A stretch of 64,000 bases of DNA, taken from NCBI GenBank assembly GCA_030690895.1, contig JAUYFQ010000001.1, positions 1 through 64,000 of the forward strand, given 5' to 3'. The translations under genes and the position numbers were made by a program. This DNA is from Sulfuricellaceae bacterium. GTDB taxonomy: Bacteria; Pseudomonadota; Gammaproteobacteria; Burkholderiales; Sulfuricellaceae. Positions 8,508-58,283 of the stretch are shown one piece after another (position 1 is the stretch's first letter; each line of letters opens with the position of its first letter). The notes below the pieces were generated by a model that ran no database searches, had not been told where the DNA came from, and saw only the letters and a program-made list of their open reading frames with translations.

Positions 8508-10030
<1,523 letters not shown>

Positions 10031-10044
<14 letters not shown>

Positions 10045-10125
10045 CGAGCCAGCGTCCCTCTCTCCCTCTGGGAGAGAGTTAGGAGAGAGGGAAACTGTCG
10101 CACCCAAAGGGTGTGACAGTTGGAA
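10031..10125 (-). repeat. Composite palindromic element, family C, reverse orientation
   Basis: On the minus strand the order is an outer inverted pair (AACTGTC...CACCC and GGGTGCGACAGTT), a pyrimidine/purine stem (CTCTCCCAGAGGGAGAG) and a terminal GGCTCGCTACGCGAG palindrome. The same three-part layout is seen at 21341-21462, 22564-22680 and 30855-30997, and partly at 50190-50285. Together with about 25 more bases it fills the gap before slmA. Confidence 0.75.
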
Positions 10126-21343: not shown

Positions 21344-21462
21344 CGGGCATGGCAGACGTGTTCCCTCATATGACGAAACTTGCCATGCCCGTTTTTCCCT
21401 CCCCTGCCCTCCCCCGAAGGGAGAGGGGGATGCAGGCTCGCTGCGCGAGTTTCGCGTTAACA
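21341..21462 (+). repeat. Composite palindromic element, family C, copy 1
   Basis: Three nested palindromes occur in order: an outer pair GGGCATGGCA / TGCCATGCCC, a C-rich/G-rich stem around CCCTCCCC...GGGAGAGGGGG, and a terminal GGCTCGCTGCGCGAG. It starts at the grxC stop codon and ends three bases before the GTG start of the thioredoxin gene. The element therefore fills the entire gap between two genes. Confidence 0.8.
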
Positions 21463-21893: not shown

Positions 21894-22028
21894 CCACGGG
21901 GGCACGGGGGAATGCCATGGGACTTAAATTTGCTCACGCCTCGCCCAATGGGTAATGGGTGACAGGTAAAAATATCGTAACACATTGATTTTTCTTGATC
22001 CCCGTGTCCCCCGCGCTCCCCGTGGTTA
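21890..22028. mobile_element. MITE-like element, family D (CCACGGGG arms), copy 1
   Basis: The left arm TTAACCACGGGGGCACGGGG (21890-21909) pairs with a right arm of 30 bases (21999-22028) ending CCCCGTGGTTAA. The interior carries CCATGGGA, a CCCAATGGG stretch and AACACATTGATTTT, all of which recur inside the copy at 46353-46551. Shared arms plus shared interior indicate a dispersed non-coding mobile element. Confidence 0.75.
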
Positions 22029-22566: not shown

Positions 22567-22680
22567 CGGGCACGGCGAATCGTCGGCTCAAATTATGAAG
22601 CTCGGCCTGCCTGTTTCCCCCTCCCCAGCCCTCCCCCGCAAGCGGGAGAGGGGGGAGTCAGACTCGCTGCGCGAGAACCG
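22564..22680 (+). repeat. Composite palindromic element, family C, copy 2
   Basis: It begins TAACGGGCACGGC at the secB stop, continues with a CCCTCCCCCGCAAGCGGGAGAGGGG stem and ends ACTCGCTGCGCGAG. The outer inverted pair is weaker than in copies 1 and 3. The next gene appears to initiate inside this element (ATG 22595) and to translate the remainder of it. Confidence 0.75.
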
Positions 22681-23122
22681 TATAATAGGCTGGCGTTATC
22701 TTCTGCTCCTTGCCGCCGTATTTCCATCGGTGACTTGGGCGCTGGAGTTCCGCTCCATCGCGGCAGATCGTACCGTGATGTATGACGCCCCCTCGCTCCA
22801 AGCCAAGAAAAAATTTCTTGCCAGCCGCTTCTGCCCGGTCGAAGTGATTGTCGAACTGGCAGATTTCGTCAAGGTTCGCGACATGGCGGGAGACCTGCTC
22901 TGGGTGGAAAAAAAGAGCCTCAGCGCAACCCGCACGGTGCTGGTTTCCGTGCCGCTGGCCGATGTGTTGCAAAAACCAGAATCAGGCGCCACCCAGGCTT
23001 TTCAGGCAGAACGTGGCGTCGCGCTGGAAGTGCTGGAAAAACCCAGCAATGGCTGGCTGAAAGTCCGCCATCCTGACGGCTCCAGCGGATACCTTCAAAC
23101 ATCCCAGGTCTGGGGCGCATGA
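22595..23122 (+). CDS. SH3-like domain protein with repeat-derived N-terminus
   Basis: After a hydrophobic signal ([15 protein letters not shown]) come two SH3-like modules (about 55-110 and 115-175) with typical DGSSGYL and GWLKVRH strands. Such proteins often bind cell-wall peptides, but the role here is unknown. Between the repeat and the signal there is no ATG or usable GTG/TTG. The nearest in-frame start is ATG 22595 inside the composite repeat, which would put about 30 residues of repeat-encoded sequence ([19 protein letters not shown]) before the signal. The stop overlaps gpsA (ATGA). Confidence 0.7.
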
Positions 23123-24162: not shown

Positions 24163-24224
24163 TTGTAGGTGCGAATTTATTCGCACATAAACGCCTGATC
24201 GTGCGAATAAATTCGCACCTACAA
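24163..24224. repeat. REP-like palindrome, family A, copy 2
   Basis: Two halves, TTGTAGGTGCGAATTTATTC and GAATAAATTCGCACCTACAA, surround an ACGCCTGATC-type spacer. Each half is itself palindromic around GTGCGAAT/ATTCGCAC. It lies between the convergent gpsA and trmL genes and could act as a bidirectional terminator, although no T-tract follows. Confidence 0.8.
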
Positions 24225-30857: not shown

Positions 30858-31566
30858 CTGGCATGGCGATACCCAAAAGGGCACAAGAGCGCCGCCCAAA
30901 ATCATGAAACATCGCCTCGCCATGCCAGTTTCCCTCTCTCCTAACTCTCTCCCAGAGGGAGAGAGGGACGTAGGCTCGCTGCGCGAGTTTCACGCTAATC
31001 AGGCCATCGATCGCCAGTCCGGCATTTCCCTGGTGGAAGTGATTATCTTTATCGTGGTTGTCGGCATTGGCGTGACGGGGCTAATGTCGGTCATGAACTC
31101 CACCACCAAGTACAGCGCTGATCCCATGATCCGCAAGCAGGCGATTGCCGTGGGCGAGTCTCTGCTGGAGGAGATCATGTTGCACCCTTTTACCTATTGT
31201 GACCCGGATGACCCCAGCGCCCCGACCGCAGCCAATTCCGCCGGATGCACTACGGCGGAAGGACTGGGGGTTGAGGGGGCAGAGACCCGTTACTCCAACG
31301 CCACCCCTTTTGATAATGTGAATGACTATTCCGGTTTTTCCATGGCAGCCGGAATTTATCCGGTGAATGATGGAGCGACTCTAGTTGCTGGCTTGGGAGG
31401 CTATAAGGCGAGCGTCGCAATGACATCGTCGAATGCCACTGCTTTCGGTTTTCCATCCGATGCGGACGCGGTGCTGAGAATCGATGTGACGGTAACCGAT
31501 GCCAACGGGAATGACGTCACCCTGACTGGCTACCGTTTCCGCTACGCGCCGAACGCCACCTTGTGA
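30847..31566 (+). CDS. mshD: MSHA minor pilin MshD with repeat-encoded leader
   Basis: The mature part starts at the prepilin motif G-ISLVEVIIFIVVVGIGVTGLM, followed by a typical MshD body with CDPDDPSAP. Between the repeat and the prepilin motif there is no ATG, GTG or TTG in frame, so translation must begin inside or before the repeat (ATG 30847, overlapping mshC, or 30904 or 30922). The cleaved leader therefore includes PEGERDVGSLREF-type repeat sequence. Prepilin peptidase would remove it, which may explain tolerance. The start is uncertain. Confidence 0.82.
   Translation: MCTNWHGDTQKGTRAPPKIMKHRLAMPVSLSPNSLPEGERDVGSLREFHANQAIDRQSGISLVEVIIFIVVVGIGVTGLMSVMNSTTKYSADPMIRKQAIAVGESLLEEIMLHPFTYCDPDDPSAPTAANSAGCTTAEGLGVEGAETRYSNATPFDNVNDYSGFSMAAGIYPVNDGATLVAGLGGYKASVAMTSSNATAFGFPSDADAVLRIDVTVTDANGNDVTLTGYRFRYAPNATL
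30855..30997 (+). repeat. Composite palindromic element, family C, copy 3
   Basis: It begins TAACTGGCATGGCGA at the mshC stop and closes its outer pair at TCGCCATGCCAGT. It continues through a CTCTCTCCCAGAGGGAGAGAG stem and ends GGCTCGCTGCGCGAG. The layout matches copies 1 and 2 at grxC and secB. It overlaps the coding start of mshD. Confidence 0.8.
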
Positions 31567-46227: not shown

Positions 46228-46352
46228 AAGGGAAGCCGAATTCTACGTGGCTTATGCCCTTTACTCAACAGCCTGATGCTATCGATGATGTGGATAATTG
46301 CGGAAAGGGCCGCACTGGATGGAACAAGCGCTGATTTCACCGGATCGCTAAG

Positions 46353-46551
46353 AACCGTATTTGAACCACGGGGACCAAAAGTAGGCGCCTCTAGGCGACA
46401 CGGGGATCACGGGGAAAGCCATGGGATTTGGCGCTTGACATGGCTCACCCATTTGGTGATAGGGAAAAATCGTGTAACACATTGATTTTGCCCCGTGATC
46501 CCCGTGTCGCCTAGAGGCGCTACTTTTGGTCCCCGTGGTTCAAATACGGTT
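46353..46551. mobile_element. MITE-like element, family D, copy 4, with 61-62-base arms
   Basis: The arms 46353-46414 and 46491-46551 are perfect inverse copies except for one extra G in the left arm. They contain the AACCACGGGG and CACGGGGATCACGGGG units of family D plus a nested ACCAAAAGTAG...CGCCTCTAGGCG segment. The 76-base interior shares CCATGGGA and AACACATTGATTTT with copy 1 at 21890. It fills most of the 395-base gap after the tRNA; nothing else is visible there. Confidence 0.85.
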
Positions 46552-46622
46552 TTTAGCAACCTGGAATCATCAGAAGGCGAAGCTGTAGAATGCCAAATGG
46601 GCAATCTGGGGTTATTCGTATA

Positions 46623-49589
46623 TCAGCGCGTGGCCACTAAAATTTGATCAATGCTTATTACCTCATGGGCAGAGATTTTATGTGGGTGGTTTCCCCACTC
46701 CAGACCTATCATTTTTAGGCCTCTTTGCGAACCAAACCTAAACGTGGCCGAACCTGAACTGGCGCGAGCAGGTCGAATATTTTCGCTACCCCCATCAAAA
46801 TAATATAAGCGTAGCTCGGGCACAGAATGTCCAGACCAACTACCACGAACCTCCAACTGTGAACCTGACAGAGCCTGCTTGTCCAAGACAGGGGAAACCA
46901 GGCTTAATTGCCGCCCCCTCCCGGAAAGCGTGACGTGACCTGGCTGTAATTCGATCATGGCGCCCTTTCCTGCCAGCCAACCGTCCGAAGACTTCACTTG
47001 AGCATTTCCGAAGGGGTAAAACAAGTTGCCCACTGGAAATGCCCGCATTTCTCTCAGCCACCAGACAAACTGGTACTCGAAAGCGCTGCCTTCCATCGCG
47101 TCGTAAGCCTTGAAATGCTCGGGATGCACCGTTCTGTCACCGGCATAACTTCCCCACATGGGAGAAAGGAAATGTGCGCCGCCATTGATCAGGTTTAGCA
47201 GGGTGGAATAGGACTCGGCATGGGTAGGCAACTTGTCAGGCAGAGCAAAGGAGGCAGGATGAAACTCCACCACACCCCATTCCGGGTCGGCATCCCGAAT
47301 ATTCTGAATCAGGGAACGGCCTGAACGGGGCGTTCCCTCATTACGGCTGGCCGGGCCATAGAGAATGGCACCCAGGCGACCCTTGCGCGGCTTGGCGCCT
47401 TCGATGGAAACACCGGCCTGATCCGTCCAGCCCGTAGCAGGATCATTGACCTTGCTTGCGACATCGGTCTGAATAAAGGTCTGGCTGGTGAAAATGCGAT
47501 CCTCCGGCAACCCAGCCTGGGTCGCCCATTCCGCGAGGTCGTCGTAATGGCGAGCCACTAGATGTCGCTTGAACTGAGTCCAAATCTGTTGCCATGGATC
47601 CTGATAATTTGGCGTGCCGCGCGGCGGGTCGACCTCCGCGATGGTTTTCCAGTTATTTTTTGCCAGTTGATTGACCTGAGCGAGCGTTAACTTAGGCTCA
47701 TGTCGGCGAGATGCCATCTCGGCATCATCGGCATAGGCTTCCAGATGAAACAGCCATTCGCGGAACTGGCGCAGGGTGTCCGGGTTGTAGTCATACCATT
47801 GGGTTTGGTAGAACCAGGGATTGATGTATTGATCGGGGTCGAGATTCACTGCGATATAAATTTGCGGGTGCTTGCGCATAAACTGCACGATTTCCCTGAT
47901 GGCAGCCTGTAAATTGCGCTTTTTGTACCCCATGAATTTCCGGTTATAGCGATTGAGGCTCATCATGCGCGCCAGTTGCGGGCTTTTTGTCGCACCGGGC
48001 AAATGCTCCAGCGCATCATCCGCTTCGGGGCGACCAAACTGGTTCCACTGCACGGTGGCAGGATCGGTTTCCAGGAAATCCACTACATCCACTTCCGGGT
48101 AGGAAAACTTGGCATCGGCCCACACGCCGCCATCGAGCGTAATCAGCATGGGCGCTTTGTAGCGCAGCGCGGTAGCCAGCAACTCGCGCAGCCCACCGCC
48201 CGTCATGGTCAGGTCGCCGCCCCGGTCACGCAAACGGTCGGGAAAGGCTGGGTCGAACAGGAAATCCTTATCCCGCCCCAGCGTGGTGCGCAAATACTCG
48301 GTTCGAGCGCGTATCCCGACCTCTACACAACCGCCCTGCACCATTTTCTGAAAATCGACCATCTGCACGAATCCGGTGCGAAAGAACGCGACCTCGCCGG
48401 GATAGAACACTCTCAGTTTTCTGCCGCCACATGTGATCACGGGTCGGTTTTCTTTCAACACCAGCGGCCCCGTGGAGAGCAGAGATTCGTTTCCAGACTT
48501 GTCCCGAACGCGCACCGACACGCGAGAGAGTCCGCCCGGCAATTGTTGCCGGGGCAGTTTCACCTCAAACAAATCCCCAGACTTGAGCGGAATGGCCTTG
48601 CTGGGCAAGGCATTCATGCGGGGATCATCTAGACGGGAAATGGGCACATCGCTGGCCATGCGCTGCATATCGCCCAGCACCAGGCCTGATTCGGTCTCGA
48701 CGCGAGCCGATGCGATGCCATCCTCATCCGCCAGCCAGGCTTCAAGCCGGAGTTCGGAAAGGTTGGTCAAGCGGTCGGCCTGCCCGATCACCTTGCCGAT
48801 CGGCGAGTCGTTGATGACCTCCGGCCCCCGTACAGTGGAAACGTGACCCGCGCCATCGTCAAAACGAATCGCCAGCGGGTAACGCCCCCTCGGCAAATCC
48901 ACCATCCGAACGGTGACATCGAATGCAGAATGCTTCGCGCCCGACCAATTTGGAAACAGCTTGCCCACATCATCGCGCAAAGACTTGGCTTTGGTGGATG
49001 CGAGCACTCGCTTCTCCAGCATGACGGAGACCTTGACCGGACTGTTCCACGAGAATGCCCAGCCACTGATGCGATTCAAGCCATCCCATGTCAGCGACGA
49101 AAATTCCTCAAAAGCAGAGATGGCGGGGAACAGGTTGGATGGAACCGCGCCTATCCGGTAGTTATACCCATCGGATCGAATGGCGCGCAATTCCAGATTT
49201 TGATTAGCCGACCCCAGCTTACGCGCATCCAGCGGCATGATAAAACCCTTGGCGCTGGATGCAGAACAGGCCGGAAACACAGCCAGTACATCGTTTCGCT
49301 CCTGGTCAGGCCGCGCCGATGCCAGTACGTGCTGACCGCTGACCAGATCGATGCGGACGACACCGGTTCTGTCCCCCACCCACCCCACCAAGCTGGCAAG
49401 ATATTGGGACTCGCCACTGACCGAGTTGTCGATTCCGCTCAAAACCGTGCAGGTTTTAACGCGGTAAGCGTACATGGCTTTGGGGTACGACTGCCAGCCT
49501 AGCGTGCCAAGCCAAGCCAAGCCGCCGACAAACATAAGTGCCAGAGCCAGCTTGGTTTGATTGGCTAGACGGGAGTCAGGCAGTCTCAT
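46623..49589 (-). CDS. Membrane-anchored glycosidase-like protein of the glycan cluster
   Basis: The 988-residue protein has an N-terminal membrane helix or uncleaved signal (about residues 13-33), beta-sandwich modules (about 50-390, e.g. ISGWAFSWNSPVKVSVMLEK) that resemble those of the GH26 protein at 931, and a probable TIM-barrel (about 420-880) with IYIAVNLDPDQY, YDYNPDTLRQFREWL and VVEFHPASF. The barrel is weakly reminiscent of beta-galactosidase-type (GH42-like) enzymes, but I cannot name the family or catalytic residues with certainty. A beta-sandwich tail follows. The start overlaps the upstream TPR gene (ATGA), so it belongs to the glycan operon. Confidence 0.7.
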   Translation of the reverse strand: MRLPDSRLANQTKLALALMFVGGLAWLGTLGWQSYPKAMYAYRVKTCTVLSGIDNSVSGESQYLASLVGWVGDRTGVVRIDLVSGQHVLASARPDQERNDVLAVFPACSASSAKGFIMPLDARKLGSANQNLELRAIRSDGYNYRIGAVPSNLFPAISAFEEFSSLTWDGLNRISGWAFSWNSPVKVSVMLEKRVLASTKAKSLRDDVGKLFPNWSGAKHSAFDVTVRMVDLPRGRYPLAIRFDDGAGHVSTVRGPEVINDSPIGKVIGQADRLTNLSELRLEAWLADEDGIASARVETESGLVLGDMQRMASDVPISRLDDPRMNALPSKAIPLKSGDLFEVKLPRQQLPGGLSRVSVRVRDKSGNESLLSTGPLVLKENRPVITCGGRKLRVFYPGEVAFFRTGFVQMVDFQKMVQGGCVEVGIRARTEYLRTTLGRDKDFLFDPAFPDRLRDRGGDLTMTGGGLRELLATALRYKAPMLITLDGGVWADAKFSYPEVDVVDFLETDPATVQWNQFGRPEADDALEHLPGATKSPQLARMMSLNRYNRKFMGYKKRNLQAAIREIVQFMRKHPQIYIAVNLDPDQYINPWFYQTQWYDYNPDTLRQFREWLFHLEAYADDAEMASRRHEPKLTLAQVNQLAKNNWKTIAEVDPPRGTPNYQDPWQQIWTQFKRHLVARHYDDLAEWATQAGLPEDRIFTSQTFIQTDVASKVNDPATGWTDQAGVSIEGAKPRKGRLGAILYGPASRNEGTPRSGRSLIQNIRDADPEWGVVEFHPASFALPDKLPTHAESYSTLLNLINGGAHFLSPMWGSYAGDRTVHPEHFKAYDAMEGSAFEYQFVWWLREMRAFPVGNLFYPFGNAQVKSSDGWLAGKGAMIELQPGHVTLSGRGRQLSLVSPVLDKQALSGSQLEVRGSWSGHSVPELRLYYFDGGSENIRPARASSGSATFRFGSQRGLKMIGLEWGNHPHKISAHEVISIDQILVATR

Positions 49590-51946
49590 CGGTTGAATAA
49601 GGACAGTAAAAACCGCTCCAGCTCTCGAATCGGCGCACTATTACCAAAAAGACGGTCAACTTTCTTCGCCATTGACGTTCTGATCTGCGCATTCCATTCC
49701 GCATCCGTACCCAAACGCAGGGCGATCCGCAAATAATCCTGCCTGTCCTGCGCAATCAATTCAGGCATTCCGATTTCCTGCAACATGGCCGCAGTTTGTC
49801 GGCCACGCATGAAGCTGCCCGGCAAGGTCACGACTGGGAGATGGCTTGCCAGCGCATCCAGCGAAGTATTTCCACCCGACCAGTGCAGGGTATCGAGCAT
49901 GACATCGCAGGAGCGATTCACTTGGAGATAATCCTGACGATTCAGGCGGGGCAGGAACAGCACCCGTTTTGCTGCCGGAATAGCACGTTCCTTCATGCCC
50001 TGCTCCAGGCGAGCCATGAATGCTTGCGTGACCTGTGTGAACATGCCGGCAAAGAAGACCAGAACCGAGCGCGCATCCTGTTGCAGAATGTCCAGCAGCA
50101 ATGCGTCGTTGTCGGGATGTATCTTGTAGAGCGACTGCGGGCACAGGTACAAGGTCTTGTCCGGTGGTAGCGAAAACCGCTGTCTGTCTTTAACACGAGA
50201 CTCGCGCGGCGAGTCCGTCTCCCCCCTCCCTTTATGCCCTTCAGGGTGCGACCCGACCCCAAAGGGAGAGGGGGAAAGCGGTTTTTCATAGCAGGTTCCG
50301 ATGCCGCTCAGGCGAACCAATTTCTCCAAATAGTGTTCGTCGGCATTTTCCGGCTCCATCGATGCGCAGGACAGGTAATAGTCGATATTGGCTTGCCCCG
50401 TCGTCTCGGGATGCCCCCAGGCTGCGCATTGCACGGGTGCCAGGCGCATGGATGCCAGCACGTTCATGGCGCCATCCATGCCGATTTCCGGATAGACCAG
50501 CACATCCAGACCGTCGCCTTTTACCTGTCTGGCGATTTCCGCGATAGGTTTTCCATTCAGGGCAGCATAGTGCGAGGCCACGGATTGAATTTCTCGCGTC
50601 ACTGCGTCGCGCCAGTGGCCGGTGTAGTAGACAAACACTTCAAACCGATCCGTATCCAACATGCCGATCCAGCTCTTGAAATACGCGCCCACCGTGCATT
50701 CGCGGAGAAAGCTGGAGAGGAATCCGACCTTGACTCGCCGCCGATCCGCAGCGCCGACATCGCGTGGCATGGCCGTGTAGAGATCCGGGTTTGAAGGCTC
50801 GGCCACTTCCCTGACGAATCTGGCGAAGCTTTGTTGCAAACGGAGATCGTCTTCGCCCTGATAAGCGAGATAAAAATTGTTCCATTGCAAAGCTTGTAAA
50901 ACAGATGCCGCTGATAAGGATTTGAAATGTCCTGCCTGCGTCAGCAGCTTCGCCAACCCGGCTTCATAACCAACGCGCGCGGCAGCAAGATGAGCAGTAT
51001 CGCGGTAAATCGGTGGCAGCCCCAGGTTGGCGCCGAGAAAAGCTTGCAGATTATTAGGATCCAGCGAGACCGCATGCTGATACACGGCACGGCTTTCCTC
51101 GGTTTTGCACAACTCCCGCAATGCGTAGGCCGACAAGTTCAGCGCAGGCTGGGTATCGGGCTTCAGCGCCAGAATTCGGCGCAACAGGCTCTCTGCCTCC
51201 TCCATGCGAATCTGGTCGATCATCATGAAAGCCAGTTCCTGTAGCGCCGGAAGATGCTTGGGGTCGCGCTGCAAGAGTGCGGTGAAGCACTGCTCCGCGC
51301 CAGTCTGATCGCCCGTTTCCTTCAGCACTTTCCCCAGATTGAACTGAGCCAGGTCGTATTGCGGGTTCAGGCGAATGGCCTCGGTAAAGCTTGCAATCGC
51401 GCCTGCCGTATCCCCCTCCTGTTTGAGCAGGTTGCCCAGGTTGTTGTGTGCGCGCGCATAATCGGGCTGCGCCTGGATCGCCTGACGGAAACATTGGCTT
51501 GCCTCCTGCAATTGCTGGCGACTTTGCAACACGATGCCGAGGAGATTCCATGCAGCAGCCATGCCGGGGGCGATCAATAGCGCGGCGCGATAGCTGCATT
51601 CGGCTGCCGGGGTATCGCCCTTGTCCTGAAACACCTGCCCCAGCCCGTAATGGTAGAAAGCGTTTGTGCCGTCCATCTGGATGGCCTGCCCCAGATAGTC
51701 TGCCGCCTCGTCCAGCTTACCCTGATGATGCGCGATCAGCCCCAAGCGATGCAAGGCTTCGGCGAATTGCGGCTCCATCTGCAAAATTTCCAGATACGCA
51801 TGGCGCGCCTCATCCAGCGAACCCGCGCGGTGCAACTGGGTGGCGCGTTCCATCTGTAGGTGCGAATTTACTTGTGCCCGTTTTGTGGGTATTCGCACAA
51901 TCAACCGCTCATGTGCGAATAAATTCGCACCTTCAGGGGGCTTCAT
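49586..51946 (-). CDS. TPR-GT41 (OGT/SPINDLY-like) protein with two repeat-derived segments
   Basis: The 786-residue protein has about ten TPR units (roughly 35-330) and a GT41-like catalytic region (about 395-786) with VKVGFLSSFLRECTVG, CAAWGHPETTGQ, LYLCPQSLYKIHPDND and GGNTSLDALASHLPVVTLPG. Relatives move a sugar from UDP-sugar onto Ser/Thr or other acceptors. In the SSFLREC motif the usual histidine is a cysteine. Residues 6-31 are translated from a family A repeat, and about 554-586 from a family C repeat inserted in frame between CYEKP and RFSLPPDKTLYLCP. ATG 51946 overlaps the upstream stop; ATG 51853 would omit the first repeat. Confidence 0.85.
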   Translation of the reverse strand: MKPPEGANLFAHERLIVRIPTKRAQVNSHLQMERATQLHRAGSLDEARHAYLEILQMEPQFAEALHRLGLIAHHQGKLDEAADYLGQAIQMDGTNAFYHYGLGQVFQDKGDTPAAECSYRAALLIAPGMAAAWNLLGIVLQSRQQLQEASQCFRQAIQAQPDYARAHNNLGNLLKQEGDTAGAIASFTEAIRLNPQYDLAQFNLGKVLKETGDQTGAEQCFTALLQRDPKHLPALQELAFMMIDQIRMEEAESLLRRILALKPDTQPALNLSAYALRELCKTEESRAVYQHAVSLDPNNLQAFLGANLGLPPIYRDTAHLAAARVGYEAGLAKLLTQAGHFKSLSAASVLQALQWNNFYLAYQGEDDLRLQQSFARFVREVAEPSNPDLYTAMPRDVGAADRRRVKVGFLSSFLRECTVGAYFKSWIGMLDTDRFEVFVYYTGHWRDAVTREIQSVASHYAALNGKPIAEIARQVKGDGLDVLVYPEIGMDGAMNVLASMRLAPVQCAAWGHPETTGQANIDYYLSCASMEPENADEHYLEKLVRLSGIGTCYEKPLSPSPFGVGSHPEGHKGRGETDSPRESRVKDRQRFSLPPDKTLYLCPQSLYKIHPDNDALLLDILQQDARSVLVFFAGMFTQVTQAFMARLEQGMKERAIPAAKRVLFLPRLNRQDYLQVNRSCDVMLDTLHWSGGNTSLDALASHLPVVTLPGSFMRGRQTAAMLQEIGMPELIAQDRQDYLRIALRLGTDAEWNAQIRTSMAKKVDRLFGNSAPIRELERFLLSLFNR
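50190..50285 (-). repeat. Composite palindromic element inside a GT41 gene, family C, copy 5
   Basis: On the minus strand it reads TTTCCCCCTCTCCCTTTGGG, a GGGTGCGA...GCACCCTGAAGG centre, AAAGGGAGGGGGGAG, and a closing ACTCGCCGCGCGAGT. These parts match the family C elements in gaps elsewhere. Here the element lies wholly within an open reading frame and adds a multiple of three bases. Confidence 0.75.
51855..51933. repeat. REP-like palindrome, family A, copy 3, overlapping the GT41 gene start
   Basis: It has two tandem units: TGTAGGTGCGAATTTACTTG with a matching ATTCGCAC, and ATGTGCGAATAAATTCGCAC. It lies between two in-frame start codons of the minus-strand GT41 gene (51946 and 51853) and is open in that frame. 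Confidence 0.8.
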
Positions 51947-58222: not shown

Positions 58223-58283
58223 TGTAGGTGCGAATTTATTCGCACAATCAGGCGTCGGCGTGCGAATAAATTCGCACCTACAA
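58223..58283. repeat. REP-like palindrome, family A, copy 4
   Basis: TGTAGGTGCGAATTTATTCG and CGAATAAATTCGCACCTACA surround an AATCAGGCGTCGGC spacer, nearly the same as copy 2. It ends three bases upstream of the glycosyltransferase ATG (minus strand), so it occupies the normal ribosome-binding position. Confidence 0.8.

Follow-up and report, generated by a model that had tools for sequence, protein, structure and literature searches.

The window considered here, a stretch of 64,000 nucleotides from a Sulfuricellaceae bacterium (contig JAUYFQ010000001.1), carries a gene for a protein with TPR repeats and a GT41 (O-GlcNAc transferase-like) catalytic domain. Within the part that encodes the catalytic domain lies a palindromic repeat that leaves the reading frame open. 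The locus raises the question of whether a dispersed DNA element has supplied part of an enzyme, or whether a natural loop of the enzyme happens to resemble a repeat. The features and copies that bear on this question are collected in Table 1.

Table 1. Features of the window by position, followed by copies in other genes by locus; "Pfam match spans it" stands for an element within one match or between two matches of one protein
Feature	Position or locus	Strand	Remarks
Repeat copy (model seed)	10027..10094	-	83.8 bits
Repeat copy (model seed)	21392..21458	+	70.7 bits
Repeat copy (model seed)	22613..22684	+	68.3 bits
Repeat copy (model seed), left unit ahead of it	30929..30996	+	Repeat model
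TPR + GT41 (O-GlcNAc transferase-like) gene	49586..51946	-	786 aa counted from first ATG
Palindromic repeat, in frame	50190..50277	-	Residues 557-586, 30 codons (LSPSPFGVGSHPEGHKGRGETDSPRESRVK)
Second hairpin of the repeat (GACTCGC..GCGAGTC)	50199..50215	.	Sequence and RNA folding
Nested small palindrome in main-hairpin loop	50229..50247	+	PEGHKG encoded on opposite strand
Different palindromic repeat	51855..51936		Overlaps residues 4-31 of longest GT41 ORF
Element in PFOR	L073		Pfam match spans it
Element in DUF1800 protein	L090		Pfam match spans it
Element in epimerase	L091		Pfam match spans it
Element in UvrD	L095		Pfam match spans it
Element in Memo-AMMECR1 protein	L108		Pfam match spans it
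Element in FGGY kinase	L115		Pfam match spans it
Element in CREG/PNPOx-like protein	L121		Pfam match spans it
Element in PD-(D/E)XK protein	L123		Pfam match spans it
Element in HlyD	L124		Pfam match spans it
Element in RisS-type histidine kinase	L133		Pfam match spans it
Element in GlnD	L140		Pfam match spans it
Element in FAD-binding flavoprotein	L146		Pfam match spans it
Element in GatB	L162		Pfam match spans it
Probable intragenic elements	L107, L135, L169		Two stretches of one family each
gatB with family-like insert	L231 (G000)		32.5 bits
gatB with family-like insert	L229 (G015)		30.6 bits
gatB with family-like insert	L227 (G001)		22.7 bits
gatB with family-like insert	L188 (G004)		Weak, 18.2 bits, E 0.007
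gatB with family-like insert	L234 (G012)		Hardly matched, 13.7 bits, E 0.095

The repeat within the GT41 gene and its protein

The host protein belongs to the GT41 family by both profile and fold. Its reading frame, counted from the first ATG at 51946, is free of stop codons over 786 codons. In a Pfam profile search the product matches PF13844 (E 6.9e-39) as well as TPR families, and the top Foldseek match of its predicted structure, a model of moderate quality, is 5djs, the OGT of T. terrenum (E 1.4e-21). Residue K608 of the SLYKIHPD motif aligns with the lysine of the LYKI stretch of human OGT. A catalytic role is described for this lysine, K842 in the human and K341 in the T. terrenum enzyme, in the available part of the source (PMC4683255). 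This motif and other GT41 landmarks are retained. The different palindromic repeat at the 5′ end of the longest ORF has related copies at 782-806, 24163-24224 and 58223-58283, and the true start of the protein may be Met32, directly after that repeat.

The sequence-only reading of this DNA had proposed that a family repeat encodes about 33 residues of the catalytic domain (around 554-586, from 50190-50285) and leaves the frame open. Both proposals hold, and the start at 50190 stands; the extent is refined to 50190-50277, residues 557-586, across which the ORF has no stop. At the DNA level, a BLAST search with positions 50170-50310 finds 9 further places in the same genome at E≤0.001. The small palindrome at 50229-50247 occurs exactly in 8 places of the genome, its own included, and the 19-base core has 22 matches at up to three mismatches, 8 of them exact, compared with 1 for the reversed control; several of the three-mismatch matches are probably unrelated. 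A covariance model with the GT41 copy among its seven seeds (R1) scores that copy at 61.2 bits, and a leave-one-out model from the remaining six seeds (R2) still gives 41.7 bits (E 5.4e-9). The membership of the GT41 copy in a dispersed repeat family is thus beyond chance. At the RNA level, the coding strand of the repeat folds into two stems (-49.8 kcal/mol, z -4.8). An inverted repeat around the GT41 element, some 8-9 bases long, was also considered and is attributed to chance, as 8-base matches number 1 among 61 copies with 0.37 expected.

Relatives of the GT41 protein lack the added residues. Between the conserved ends P556 and L599 there are 42 residues in this protein and 15-22 in 38 of 39 relatives, with a median of 19; in the seven relatives that share 50-55% identity across the catalytic region, the linker counts 18-19 residues. 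The 39 comprise 20 of 22 chosen earlier as matches that reach across the linker and 19 added later; the other two, L010 and L011, duplicate L201 and L199. A search of genome contigs with the GT41 protein gave two distant loci, of which one was used. The exception (L211) has an unrelated Ser/Gln-rich linker of 33 residues at the same junction. The residues on either side of the insert continue the family alignment, as the sequence-only reading had claimed, and the check it had suggested, alignment with relatives, shows the repeat to be an insertion with respect to them. A loop of equal length encoded by unrelated DNA, which would have spoken for coincidence, was not found among these relatives. 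Linker lengths and the leave-one-out model together rule out a chance resemblance between a natural loop and the repeat. With the repeat model, none of 19 homologous GT41 loci gave a match above noise (a single match, 9.6 bits, E 0.84). Measured against the median of 19, the 42-residue linker is longer by about 23 residues, which is fewer than the 30 repeat codons; either some codons of the native linker have gone, or that linker was short to begin with. Since identity to the best relatives in the genomes searched reaches only about 55% across the catalytic region, the insertion junction is approximate and not base-exact.

In a search of the PDB, human OGT aligned in two pieces, with query residues 393-545 and 576-784, and about 120 human residues fall between them. 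The alignment places the insert where the two catalytic lobes join, at the site of the human intervening domain, and the insert ends 22 residues before K608. Eukaryotic OGTs have an intervening domain at this junction, and the bacterial OGTs compared with them in the available part of the source do not (PMC4683255). What is alike is an added segment that separates the two lobes of GT41; however, the human domain has about 120 residues and the segment here has 30 repeat-coded residues, mostly predicted to be disordered. This prediction comes from an AlphaFold2 model built from 4 sequences, which is moderate (mean pLDDT 67; its residue numbers are shifted by 330). Residues 546-579 have pLDDT below 50, and within the insert residues 557-579 show no secondary structure whereas 580-586 enter the start of a predicted helix; values below 50 also occur outside the insert, at 394-402 and 527-542. 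The flexible loop suggested earlier agrees with the disorder predicted for most of the insert. Its proposed location near the nucleotide-sugar site is better worded, on the alignment, as an inter-lobe linker 22 residues ahead of the putative catalytic lysine.

The repeat family and its copies in other genes

The core of the element, about 68 bp long, consists of TTTCCCTCTCTCC, an inner arm, GGGAGAGAGGGA, and then a hairpin of GGCTCGCTGCGCGAG, with an end resembling TTTCACGTTAA. In 32 copies, with up to 7 mismatches allowed, the core is preceded by a left unit about 57 bases long, which starts near CTAAC and by eye is mostly inverted repeat. The full unit seems to be composed of three hairpins that extend from TAAC to GTTA, and longer copies of 124-137 bp exist. 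The loop of the middle hairpin holds smaller palindromes, and the one that reads PEGHKG is present in the GT41, PFOR and GatB genes. In the sense frame most used within genes, a stop codon is found in only 7 of 94 copies that score at least 40 bits. Elsewhere in the window, inverted repeats that contain CACGGGG units are nested at 46331-46573 (arms 46331-46384/46520-46573 and 46385-46417/46488-46520), and related CCCCGTG repeats are found near 21999, 26798 and 27263.

With the seven-seed covariance model, the genome has at least 127 matches at E≤1 and at least 108 at E<1e-3, these being lower bounds in that 150 of 395 candidates were scored. Removal of 6 matches that overlap one on the opposite strand and 6 weak ones (E 0.006-1) leaves the 115 copies studied here. 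Among 80 genomes, scanned with stricter filters and at most 56 candidates scored per genome so that counts are again minimal, the repeat is found at E≤1e-4 in at least 27, its own genome included. These are at least 7 of 8 in the genus, all 14 others of the family, and at least 6 of 58 others of the order. One genus member, G003, has no match at that threshold among the candidates scored; G010, G018, G019 and G055 are rich in the repeat. A plasmid search returned only matches of 56% coverage, in two Neisseria records.

Thirty-eight of the 115 copies lie in frames that extend without a stop for 60 codons or more in each direction, in 37 different ORFs including GT41. Sense phase 1 is used by 18, antisense phase 0 and sense phase 2 by 7 each, and other frames by 6. 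A common peptide of 19 letters recurs in approximate form: both its LSP and its RE are found in 13 of 28 sense copies, with others plainly related by eye, and 7 of 10 antisense copies share the motif of NVKLAQRACVPLSPWERVRREGN. Dispersed, present in several unrelated ORFs and encoding a recurrent peptide, the repeat behaves as an in-frame palindromic coding element. The expectation that such an in-frame element would be rare was not borne out, given these 38 copies and the cases described in the available parts of two published sources (PMC10969869; PMC3733652). Random sites in the same loci passed the open-frame test far more often (1192 of 1806 vs 38 of 115), which means that the elements either stay out of genes or are removed after insertion; the deficit fits a loss of gene-breaking inserts. 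Copies that are within genes keep the frame.

Pfam tables for the 36 other ORFs, sorted by reading, show the element within one Pfam match, or between two matches of the same protein, in 13, and probably in 3 more. Among the remaining ORFs, 10 have no Pfam match and 9 are matched on one side only. In LspA (L166), one of the 38, the domain begins after the element, so that this copy probably precedes the true start and is not coding there. Gene breakage was looked for at 24 non-spanning elements between ORFs of the same strand, of which 19 were scanned as pairs. None of the 19 has the same family on both sides; 12 pairs have different families (e.g. TatA_B_E/TatC and FeoA/FeoB) and 7 are uninformative. 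At L116 (G000:C45:8460-8527), one of these 7, the LppC match of the downstream ORF begins only at profile position 220, and the upstream ORF gave no match; judged from these profiles, this is possibly a gene broken by the repeat. Two copies also lie within about 550 bases of each other (L091 and L083, G000:C121:39606-40152). The first is in frame in the epimerase gene, and the second overlaps the last codons of that ORF, before a racemase gene.

Filled and empty sites in uvrD and gatB

Sites that are filled in one genome and empty in others are observed in two conserved genes. The UvrD insert is absent from all six genus orthologues with a full gene (79-82% identical); G001 has a fragment only. 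The second gene, gatB, is a core gene of protein synthesis and often essential. It was recovered from 20 of 22 family genomes, 14 of which have no insert, although the G011 gene, counted among them, exceeds the others by one residue. Five have a family-like insert at one place, scored with a repeat model that contains no gatB seed. The twentieth, G006 (L230), has another 17 extra codons at the same place, which the repeat model did not match.

On the gatB gene tree, branches of 98-100% support join filled G004 to G007 and G005, which are empty, and filled G015 to the empty G017. The inserts are scattered on this tree, which points either to several separate fillings or to an early filling with several losses. 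The filled genes of G000, G001, G004 and G015 resemble one another in the outer repeat and differ in what the loop contains, which suggests nested growth. Perhaps growth within working genes takes place in two steps, in which a base hairpin that keeps the frame is inserted, repeatedly so at one place in gatB, and small frame-keeping palindromes are then added in its loop. By such steps selfish DNA might lengthen the linkers of conserved enzymes, the GT41 lobe junction included; this scheme is tentative, and somewhat more doubtful than probable. At gatB, where most relatives lack an insert and others have one, the site provides a natural series for the effect of the insert and for the timing of gain and loss.

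Origin of the insert and relation to known elements

The best explanation of the GT41 locus, with a probability of about 0.86, is that a REP/MITE-like element inserted into the inter-lobe linker and is tolerated there. A dispersed palindrome with one frame free of stops in most copies would have been moved by a transposase acting in trans and entered the linker. It is proposed to have been retained because the frame was kept and only a loop was added, and the protein with the insert would be made and would work. Copies within genes would be sifted by selection and not aimed.

The open frame could instead be a matter of luck in a decaying pseudogene. The distance to the nearest relatives and the second repeat at the 5′ end of the longest ORF would suit such decay, which is nevertheless unlikely in view of a stop-free frame of this length, the retained GT41 landmarks with the lysine motif among them, and the presence of the same element in frame in many conserved genes. 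An adaptive insert, retained for changing the enzyme as eukaryotic OGT may be changed by the segment added at this junction, would account for its location at the place of the human intervening domain and, in addition, for the unrelated longer linker of L211. Similar repeat-coded peptides in unrelated proteins, the disorder predicted for most of the insert and the lack of such an insert in 38 of 39 relatives make adaptation quite improbable. The assembly itself is fragmented (186 contigs, contamination 6.37%), and an error of assembly or binning might have placed the repeat inside the gene. Frame-keeping is not expected of an artefact, however, and family-like in-frame inserts at one gatB site come from separate assemblies (G001 and G015, and more weakly G004 and G012); an artefact is therefore hardly credible. 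Insertion of a tolerated REP/MITE-like element remains the preferred reading, and the copies taken together indicate that palindromes that code for protein have repeatedly supplied added linker sequence in another bacterial lineage, including in the conserved GatB and UvrD. For annotation, a peptide that recurs in unrelated proteins can be repeat-coded and need not be a conserved domain.

The phenomenon is already known, from Rickettsia palindromic elements (RPEs), which have a counterpart in Wolbachia, and from REPs within genes; the repeat described here is a further case of that kind. As described in the available part of the source, RPEs are in frame in unrelated genes and encode a recurrent peptide, which is the likeness to the present repeat; they are set apart by their description as ten families of about 150 bp (PMC10969869), whereas the core of the present repeat measures about 68 bp, is preceded by a left unit in some copies and holds smaller palindromes in its loop. 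GTAG and CGTC REPs are also found inside ORFs, more than half of them as dimers or groups coding 20-30 amino acids, and their hosts include a UvrD/REP helicase, UvrD being a host here as well; recB in two Xanthomonas species has different REPs at about one site (PMC3733652, available part). By eye, there is no GTAG at the hairpin foot of the present repeat, whose unit runs from TAAC to GTTA. CGTC REPs have a CGTC tag, a stem of 8-9 bp that nearly always has AT in the first and second position, and a short tail that is mostly CCA (PMC3733652, available part); here, also by eye, the stem foot is C/G, and some copies have a tetramer similar to CGTC next to the middle hairpin on one of the strands. 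The repeat is thus not assigned to either class. Small mobile sequences of enterobacteria are likewise read as peptide where they are intragenic, but their units of 103-168 bp and their occurrence in other bacteria set them apart, by the description in the available part of the source (PMC2759123). The search of open-licence literature turned up no account of this repeat family, of nested intragenic loop palindromes or of a gatB hot spot.

Concerning mobility, flanking direct repeats of 4-9 bases, as expected of a target-site duplication, are not in excess at the model edges of 61 copies, the true left end often being farther out. For a RAYT as the mover there is no support in the own genome, where none of the four Y1_Tnp loci holds the repeat. 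Three Y1 transposase-like genes (L063, L064 and L065) have, by eye, other palindromes beside each of them, for example GTAGGAGCGAGCTTGCTCGC units near the gene of L064.
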